Shown piece after piece: positions 47,964 to 51,971 of a DNA stretch of 64,000 bases. Source of the stretch: Thermoproteota archaeon. GTDB taxonomy: Archaea > Korarchaeota > JAOZGF01 > JAOZFZ01. Numbering within the stretch: the first letter of the stretch is position 1; each line of letters opens with the position of its first letter. The position numbers and the translations under genes are program-made. The stretch covers positions 372,001-436,000 of the forward strand of contig JAOZFT010000004.1 of NCBI GenBank assembly GCA_027492035.1, written 5' to 3'. The notes below the pieces were generated by a model, which searched no databases, was not told where the DNA came from, and worked only from the letters and a program-made list of their open reading frames with translations.

Positions 47964-48054
47964 TGGGCCCGGCGGGATTTTCAGATTCCTCCCTTTGAAC
48001 CCGCGACACCCGGGTTAAAAGCCCGGTGCTCTAGCCTTGCTGAGCTACGGGCCC
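47964..48054 (-). tRNA. tRNA-Lys(TTT) with a T-loop intron
   Basis: A 91-nt gene maturing to 75 nt. Acceptor GGGCCCG/CGGGCCC, discriminator A; D-stem GCTC/GAGC; anticodon stem CCGGG/CCCGG with loop CTTTTAA (anticodon at 48017-48019) and no intron at 37/38; T-stem GCGGG/CCCGC. A 16-nt intron (47978-47993) splits the T-loop at 59/60. The BHB is clean: outer GGG/CCC, 3-nt bulge AAG, central TTCA/TGAA, bulge AAT. Confidence 0.95.
47978..47993 (-). other. 16-nt non-canonical intron in the T-loop of tRNA-Lys
   Basis: Excision restores TTCAAAT. The central helix TTCA/TGAA is a full 4 bp between 3-nt bulges and the outer helix is part of the T-stem. The position equals that of the tRNA-Ser T-loop intron. 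Confidence 0.9.
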
Positions 48055-48118: not shown

Positions 48119-48237
48119 TCCCGTCGGCAGGATTTGAACCTGCGAACCTGCCGGTTTCTGCATGGGCGACTGCTGTCGAAACCTCCTCCTCTAGAGGTTT
48201 CTACAGCCGGCCGCTCTACCAACTGAGCTACGACGGG
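48119..48237 (-). tRNA. tRNA-Tyr(GTA) with a 45-nt intron
   Basis: A 119-nt gene maturing to 74 nt. Acceptor CCCGTCG/CGACGGG with C1, as in archaeal tyrosine tRNAs, and discriminator A. Anticodon stem GCCGG/CCGGC, loop CTGTAGA, anticodon GTA at 48202-48204. The intron (48156-48200) is at the canonical 37/38 site with a perfect central helix CTGT/GCAG between bulges AGA and AAA, and it contains an inner 7-bp hairpin AAACCTC/GAGGTTT. It is probably cotranscribed with tRNA-Lys, 64 bases downstream. Confidence 0.95.
48156..48200 (-). other. 45-nt tRNA-Tyr intron at position 37/38
   Basis: This is the longest intron in the window. It has an inner hairpin and a single-stranded tail of about 20 nt before the 3' splice bulge. 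Confidence 0.88.
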
Positions 48238-50658: not shown

Positions 50659-50665
50659 AATTCAT
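50405..50665 (-). CDS. possible 86-residue protein in a structured segment
   Basis: The ATG at 50665 overlaps the S2 stop as ATGA, and the frame ends 15 bases before MEMO, an operon-like placement. The product (MNYPTFIEGFLLQQPSMIFL onward) has only one lysine and favours codons such as CTC and CAG, unlike all neighbours. I recognise no family. A second, overlapping frame of 74 codons (50445-50669, GTG start) is equally open. The segment may be RNA rather than coding. Confidence 0.3.
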   Translation of the reverse strand: MNYPTFIEGFLLQQPSMIFLHSQWRFQQVELLLYNLCGRRAVEISASTGAVLDYPSPTQTYPTEEELKFLTPHDHILPRGTPQRES

Positions 50666-51294
50666 ACACTTACACCTACTTCTGTTTCAAAATCTTTGGC
50701 TGTTAAGTTAATCTCTCCATCGGGCGGTATCTCCCCTCTCTCCCTTAAAATTTGCCGCGCTAAAACCCAGTAAATTAATGCTAAAGATTTTCTGCCTTTG
50801 TTGTTAGCTGGAATTATGAAATCAACAAAAGTTGTTTGATTATTTGTGTCACAAAGGGCTATAACCATTATCCCTTCCTTAGCCGCTTCAATCATTACTC
50901 TTTTATCGAGTTTTGGATCTGAAATAAACACAACTTCTGGTTCTATGTAGTCCTCTGAAAGATAGTTAGTGAATTTTCCAGGTGGAGTTCTGCCAGCTAC
51001 AGCTTGGAAACCTGTTATTTCACTGAATTTCTTCACAGGTTTTAAAGCATAAATTCTGGAGGAAGTTACAAATACTTCTCCTGGTTTAAATCTTGCTAAA
51101 TATTTTGCAGCCACTCTAATTCTTTCATCTATCTTCCTTATATTTAAAACATAAAGGCCGTCTGGTCTTAAAGAGTAAATGAATTTTCGCATGGGTTTAG
51201 TAGCTATCTTTGTCCCTATATGTACCCCTGCCTTTAAATAAACACTTCTTTCCACTAAAAAGGTGTATCTTTCCTTTCTGCTTTCTGTAGGCAT
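50662..51294 (-). CDS. rpsB: small subunit ribosomal protein S2 (uS2)
   Basis: A 210-residue S2. Recognised by LKAGVHIGTKIATKPMRKFI near 21-40, LYVLNIRKIDERIRVAAKYL and VAGRTPPGKFTNY with the P-G-T-F type motif, and IALCDTNNQTTFVDFIIPAN near 149-168. It starts immediately after the rpoN stop (TAA ATG adjacent). Gene order S9, RpoN, S2 is conserved except that RpoK has moved to 56765. Confidence 0.96.
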   Translation of the reverse strand: MPTESRKERYTFLVERSVYLKAGVHIGTKIATKPMRKFIYSLRPDGLYVLNIRKIDERIRVAAKYLARFKPGEVFVTSSRIYALKPVKKFSEITGFQAVAGRTPPGKFTNYLSEDYIEPEVVFISDPKLDKRVMIEAAKEGIMVIALCDTNNQTTFVDFIIPANNKGRKSLALIYWVLARQILRERGEIPPDGEINLTAKDFETEVGVSV

Positions 51295-51532
51295 TTATTC
51301 ACCTTCGTTTTCTTCTCTTTTTTCGTAGGCTAATATTTCATCTGCCAAGTCTAAATGTGTCAAAAACATCCTTCTGCAGCAGTATCTTTTTATTCCTAAT
51401 TCATCTAAGGCTTCTTTTTTACTTTTCCCTTGCTTAAGTAATTTAAGGTAATCCTCCCAAAGATGACCTATAAGTTTTCCACAGGTGAAGCACCTTCCGC
51501 GTCATTCAACATGACTTTACGGGTATATGCAT
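51295..51532 (-). CDS. rpoN: RNA polymerase subunit Rpo10 (RpoN), interrupted by a 22-nt intron
   Basis: The reading frame of RpoN is open from CFTCGKLIGHLWEDYL to the TAA at 51295 and ends LAYEKREENEGE, but no in-frame start exists: a TGA lies just before it. The correct start MHIPV is in another frame, from ATG 51532, with a Shine-Dalgarno AGGGGG upstream. Exon 1 is 51517-51532, intron 51495-51516, exon 2 51295-51494. Joining gives 71 residues starting MHIPVRCFTCGKLI, with the zinc site CFTCG and RYCCRRM. The intron shows a full bulge-helix-bulge. Confidence 0.9.
51495..51516 (-). other. 22-nt BHB intron in the rpoN coding sequence
   Basis: On the minus strand the fold is: outer helix TAC/GTG (two Watson-Crick pairs plus T-G), 3-nt bulge AAG, central 4-bp helix CCGT/GCGG (last pair T-G), 3-nt bulge AAA, inner helix GTCAT/ATGAC with a 5-nt loop GTTGA. 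Cleavage after the second base of each bulge removes exactly 22 nt and restores the frame. Confidence 0.85.
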
Positions 51533-51548: not shown

Positions 51549-51971
51549 TTATCTTTTCGATTTCTGGAACCTCGCTCTTGCTCCTCTCCCTCCGAATTTC
51601 TTGCTTTCTTTCAATCTTGCATCTTCAACTAACATAAACCTGTCATATTCTAAGAATTTATTTTTTAAGGTTTCTCTCGTTTTTTCATCCTTAATCCATT
51701 TAAGAAGAGCTCTTGAAATAGCTACTTGAACTGCTTCAGCTTGTCCCATGTAACCTCCCCCCTTGGCTTTAGCCTTTATGTCTATATTCTTTGTAATTTC
51801 CTCCCCAGCTAATAAAAGGGGCTCCATTATTTTCCATTTCGCAATTTCAGGTTGAAATATCTCAAGTGGGATATTGTTTATTTTTACCTTCCCTTTCCCT
51901 TTTTTAATCGTAACAGAAGCTCTTGCTGTCTTTCTTTTTGCACTTGCGAAAACAAATTCTCCGTTTACCAT
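51549..51971 (-). CDS. rpsI: small subunit ribosomal protein S9 (uS9)
   Basis: A 140-residue S9 with FASAKRKTARASVTIKKGKG near 8-27, AKGGGYMGQAEAVQVAISRA near 69-88 and the ending KKFGGRGARARFQKSKR that reaches the P-site tRNA. It follows L13 by three bases and precedes rpoN by 16. Confidence 0.96.
   Translation of the reverse strand: MVNGEFVFASAKRKTARASVTIKKGKGKVKINNIPLEIFQPEIAKWKIMEPLLLAGEEITKNIDIKAKAKGGGYMGQAEAVQVAISRALLKWIKDEKTRETLKNKFLEYDRFMLVEDARLKESKKFGGRGARARFQKSKR

Follow-up and report, generated by a model that had tools for sequence, protein, structure and literature searches.

How is RNA polymerase subunit N (RpoN) made from a gene whose first codons are split between two reading frames? 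The question is raised by the rpoN gene of an archaeon that appears to represent a deep Korarchaeota lineage. Its phylum also includes G017, in which the place of cbf5 is identical to that in the genome with locus L050 (isolate B14_G2), and this isolate is assigned to the Korarchaeota in PMC10469681. The rpoN gene lies on the minus strand of the window (the whole stretch of 64,000 nucleotides analysed here) in the order rps9-rpoN-rps2, in which the neighbours were named from their translations. From the ATG at 51532, the minus strand reads ATGCATATACCCGTAA - AGTCATGTTGAATGACGCGGAA - GGTGCTTCACCTGTGGAAAA (exon 1 - insert - exon 2). The unspliced frame encodes an 8-residue peptide, MHIPVKSC, and then runs into a TGA. 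The exon-2 frame (RCFTCGK) has a TGA just upstream and contains no ATG, GTG, or TTG until the codon of a late Met. Excision of 22 nt (51516-51495, minus strand) yields MHIPVRCFTCGK, and the joined 71-aa protein matches the NCBIfam family 'RNA polymerase subunit N' above its curated cut-off. The restored start is the expected one, as [IF]P[VI]RCF[TS]CG is conserved in almost all archaeal rpoN genes inspected. The original prediction held that the RpoN N-terminus is split between two frames with a stop between them, and that removal of these 22 nt rebuilds MHIPVRCFTCG. The minus-strand sequence agrees with the split, and the joined sequence confirms the position, the length, and the protein. The insert is very probably an archaeal bulge-helix-bulge (BHB) pre-mRNA intron that is cut by the splicing endonuclease EndA and joined by the ligase RtcB. 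The features of the locus are listed in Table 1.

Table 1. Features of the interrupted rpoN gene and its neighbours, with positions in the window.
Feature	Position	Strand	Description	Basis
Ribosomal protein S9 gene	51549..51971	-	upstream of rpoN	translation read
rpoN exon 1	51517..51532	-	ATG CAT ATA CCC GTA A; MHIPV and base 1 of the Arg codon	sequence
BHB central helix, 5' strand	51519..51522	-	CCGT, in exon 1	sequence, fold
5' bulge	51516..51518	-	AAA, predicted cut after the second A	sequence, fold
Putative 22-nt BHB intron of rpoN	51495..51516	-	predicted cuts 51517/51516 and 51495/51494	sequence, fold, conservation in G001
Inner hairpin	51501..51515	-	GTCAT-GTTGA-ATGAC, 5 bp and 5-nt loop; G001 equivalent GCCGT-TTTAA-ACGGC	fold
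BHB central helix, 3' strand	51497..51500	-	GCGG, in the intron	sequence, fold
3' bulge	51494..51496	-	AAG, predicted cut after the second A; AGG in G001	sequence, fold
Outer helix, 3' strand	51491..51493	-	GTG, pairs with TAC 51525-51523; 3 bp, one G-U; weak	sequence
rpoN exon 2	51295..51494	-	stop TAA 51297-51295; abuts rps2	sequence, NCBIfam match
Ribosomal protein S2 gene	50662..51294	-	downstream of rpoN	translation read

Structure of the insert

The insert and its flanks display the two 3-nt bulges (AAA and AAG) around a 4-bp central helix (CCGT/GCGG) that characterize a BHB. The canonical cut, which falls between nucleotides 2 and 3 of both bulges, yields mature rpoN exactly in both genomes that carry the insert. 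The strict outer helix consists of just 3 bp (C-G, A-U, and U-G). In the minimum-energy fold of the host genome (G000), the core is kept and the outer helix is shifted and longer; the z-score of the whole-region fold is a modest -1.58. The fold agrees with the structure described earlier (outer helix, AAG and AAA bulges, CCGT/GCGG, and a GTCAT/ATGAC hairpin with a 5-nt loop), with the outer helix being its weak element.

How often does such a structure occur by itself? A 456-kb sample from contig C9, amounting to 24% of the genome, was scanned for the strict geometry, defined as a 22-nt spacing, a 4-bp core with at least three G-C pairs, an outer helix of at least 3 bp, and an inner helix of at least 5 bp. 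At canonical cut sites, it occurred once in 911,200 strand positions, in a sample to which rpoN itself belongs. In the same 456 kb, loosely defined BHB-like motifs that join open reading frames (ORFs) were not more frequent than controls with bulges of other sizes. As a result, the case for rpoN rests on reading frame, homology, and conservation, and not on the motif alone. No Rfam model matched at the insert. A group I or group II self-splicing intron was rejected because the catalytic core of these introns takes hundreds of nucleotides as opposed to 22, and because of this lack of an Rfam match.

When the exon-2 frame was required to lack an early start codon, 43 candidate introns were left in the 456 kb. 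Judged from translations, two of the 43 were credible by homology, namely those in cbf5 and rpoN. An 11-nt insert that would join an ORF of 682 codons to one of >500 codons was rejected as a chance product of the overlap between an MCM gene and a Hel308-like helicase gene. The latter gene (G000:C9, about 166,990-169,550; L203), which overlaps the MCM end, contains an apparent intein (QMCLPYDTLILTEEGEIEIGEIV...).

Conservation of the insert in a related genus

The decisive evidence comes from G001, a separately assembled genome of the same family and another genus. Its rpoN reads ATACCCGTAA-AGCCGTTTTAAACGGCGCGGAG-GGTGTTTCACC, and its 22-nt insert agrees with that of G000 in site and phase. The two inserts differ at 7 of 22 bases. 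Four of these differences constitute two compensatory pair swaps in the inner helix (U-A to C-G and A-U to G-C, from G000 to G001) and the other three lie in the loop or a bulge. All nine base pairs are kept, two of them through changes on both sides. Seven randomly placed substitutions keep all nine pairs in only 0.73% of trials (probability 0.0073). Despite the changed 3' bulge, the canonical cut in G001 produces IPVRCFTCGK, with AGG as the Arg codon. Exon 2 of the two genomes displays 83% amino-acid identity and 47% identity at third positions.

In G001, a rival fold with the helix TACCC/GGGTG and a symmetric internal loop is predicted to be better than the BHB-constrained fold by 4.8 kcal/mol at 37 C and by 1.5 kcal/mol at 75 C. 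Endonuclease binding could shift the balance toward the BHB. Exon 1 of the G001 gene lacks an ATG and must open at an upstream GTG. In this region (L112:1950-1985), the GTG overlaps the rps9 stop codon (GTGA) and gives a longer N-terminus, VKKTIIPVRC.

Distribution and origin of the probable rpoN intron

The intron appears to be confined to one family. Among 41 genomes around the host and 29 of its phylum, only in G000 and G001 did the rpoN match start at family position 5 or 6; these two carriers are both multi-contig assemblies. In G002, which belongs to the nearest other family of the same order, rpoN is uninterrupted (ATGCTCATACCGGTAAGATGCTTC). The N-terminus was also unbroken in ~100 further archaeal rpoN genes that were read individually and in 149 of 150 matched genomes of another archaeal phylum; besides G002, rpoN is intact in about 250 other archaeal genomes checked. 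An apparent truncation in G180 was rejected because it reflects a run of N in the sequence. A pattern made from the two intron copies found no similar other stretch among 219 loci. Because rpoN is intact in G002 and elsewhere, the intron was presumably either gained in the ancestor of the family of G000 and G001, or retained only by that family and lost in its sister.

Splicing machinery and cbf5 intron of the host

Does the host possess the means to remove such an intron? Its genome encodes a splicing endonuclease and the ligase RtcB and contains numerous tRNA genes with introns; the putative BHB intron in rpoN occurs in a host that has both enzymes and other BHB introns. The EndA (L161:397-1530; G000:C9 near 443-444 kb) is a single chain of 378 aa with two tRNA_int_endo domains. 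The C-terminal half most resembles catalytic subunits from Crenarchaeota, the N-terminal half in addition matches the structural subunit of Pyrobaculum, and the protein looks like a fused alpha-beta enzyme. Two adjacent tRNA genes on the minus strand of the window (48119-48237 and 47964-48054) were found by the Rfam model and missed by default ARAGORN; with introns permitted, the former is read as a tRNA-Tyr that contains an intron of 45 nt.

The host cbf5 gene serves as an internal positive control. It carries a 23-nt BHB intron (L158:480-560; G000:C9 near 310,000) at the catalytic-Asp codon, the position that defines the cbf5 type and that the rpoN intron does not share. The site is exactly the one known from Crenarchaeota. 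The sequence is TTAGGA-A-CCCT-AG^A-CCCC-TACATAAA-GGGG-AGGG-AA^A-TCCTAA, and excision of the 23 nt restores GTLDPNVTG. In G001 and G002, cbf5 contains 15-nt versions in the same place (L159 and L160, near 595 and 545), one base under the shortest intron tabulated previously (16; PMC2738675). The same position of the gene is interrupted in G008 and G017, as well as in G009 and G011, the latter two with an in-frame stop. It is intact in the genomes checked from genera g4 and g7 of family f3. A split of cbf5 at family position 70 is also seen in G045:C108 (labelled Bathyarchaeota ex4484_205), where the two pieces are separated by a short gap, which suggests the same intron. A published survey placed the cbf5 intron solely in the Desulfurococcales and Sulfolobales (PMC2738675). 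Its presence in a Korarchaeota-like order, outside the published range, indicates that it is either older or was gained more than once.

Other explanations for the broken frame

One alternative is that the ribosome reads past the insert by programmed frameshifting or bypassing, as in phage T4 gene 60, given that a hairpin and a stop codon both lie between the two rpoN frames. This explanation is very improbable. GTA, the final codon read in frame, finds no counterpart to land on ahead of the exon-2 frame (GGA in G000 and GGG in G001), and a ribosome that hopped from AAG to the AAG downstream of it would arrive out of frame. Furthermore, bypassing does not predict a conserved central helix, 3-nt bulges on both sides, or an Arg codon rebuilt in both species, and the host cbf5 intron sits at a site with published splicing.

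An assembly or sequencing error, or a chimeric insertion, might be suspected since the host genome is a draft of 42 contigs. It is barely conceivable, because G001 has an insert of the same length at the same site with a different sequence and two compensatory pairs. The original prediction had called for a look at the rpoN of close relatives, and the covariation found there argues against an error as well as against a pseudogene. It had also named an RpoN gene elsewhere in the genome as a sign that this one is a pseudogene; no second rpoN was found in the draft genome (1.87 Mb, 93% complete, 42 contigs), in which the present copy is the sole one. A pseudogene whose product is replaced by another subunit would account for the broken frame, but it hardly deserves credence given the lack of another RpoN in a 93%-complete genome, an intact exon 2 that is under purifying selection between genera, the preserved order rps9-rpoN-rps2, and a break repeated at the same phase in G001.

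A proposed model for rpoN splicing

The reading frame, the BHB geometry, the covariation in G001, the enzymes, and the cbf5 intron converge on an mRNA intron of the tRNA-splicing type as the almost certain identity of the insert. In the proposed model, the rpoN transcript would fold into a BHB that spans codon 3 to just beyond the splice site. EndA would then cut both bulges after the second nucleotide, and RtcB would join the exons to create the continuous frame MHIPVRCFTCG... Cutting and joining of the rpoN RNA in the cell are inferred here from sequence.

With the intron beginning 16 nt downstream of the start codon, splicing would compete with the loading of ribosomes for the same stretch of RNA. 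Through this competition the efficiency of splicing may, with less certainty, set the level of RpoN. A further idea, which is rather unlikely, is that the intron acts as a regulatory switch between EndA and the initiating ribosome, in which the supply of RpoN is set by a splicing capacity that tRNA introns also draw on. If this were true, tRNA maturation would be linked to transcription capacity, and unspliced rpoN would yield a dead 8-residue peptide.

Relation to known systems and implications

In the papers found, cbf5 is the sole protein gene of archaea described with an intron removed by the endonuclease (PMC2738675; PMC6379350 cites the same work). No report of an rpoN intron was found in the literature searched, with subscription papers and preprints being outside its reach, and to that extent the earlier statement that cbf5 is the known case stands. 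Like the cbf5 intron of the Desulfurococcales and Sulfolobales, the rpoN intron is short (22 nt versus 16-44 bp), is of the BHB type with predicted cuts between bulge nucleotides 2 and 3, and lies in an essential protein gene whose functional product would require its removal (PMC2738675). Unlike the cbf5 intron, it is located near the N-terminus, in the codon that precedes the first zinc-binding Cys and 16 nt past the start codon, and is found in only one family of a Korarchaeota-like phylum. The enzymes also differ, as the cbf5 system uses a hetero-oligomeric endonuclease whereas the host EndA is one chain with two domains.

With archaeal tRNA introns, which have hBHBh' geometry, the rpoN intron shares the 4-bp central helix, the 3-nt bulges, the size range, and an inner helix, its outer helix being weak in strict register; it resides in an mRNA and is not surrounded by a tRNA body. 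In eukaryotes, IRE1/RtcB splicing of HAC1/XBP1 mRNA employs an endonuclease and a ligase related to tRNA splicing. This is likewise splicing of an mRNA by protein enzymes, although the endonuclease, the recognition structure, and the gene are different and the process is stress-regulated. The mechanism is already known, and the gene is new.

The location of the intron raises the question of how the transcript could be spliced despite ribosomes that initiate 16 nt upstream. Because the nearest family of the same order lacks the intron, the gain can be dated. Short archaeal genes annotated as broken or missing may likewise be spliced. The rpoN gene would join cbf5 as one of just two kinds of archaeal protein gene for which a need for tRNA-type splicing is known. 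As an independent second case, in a core RNA polymerase subunit and conserved across genera, it would mean that mRNA splicing of this type is able to spread into essential genes.
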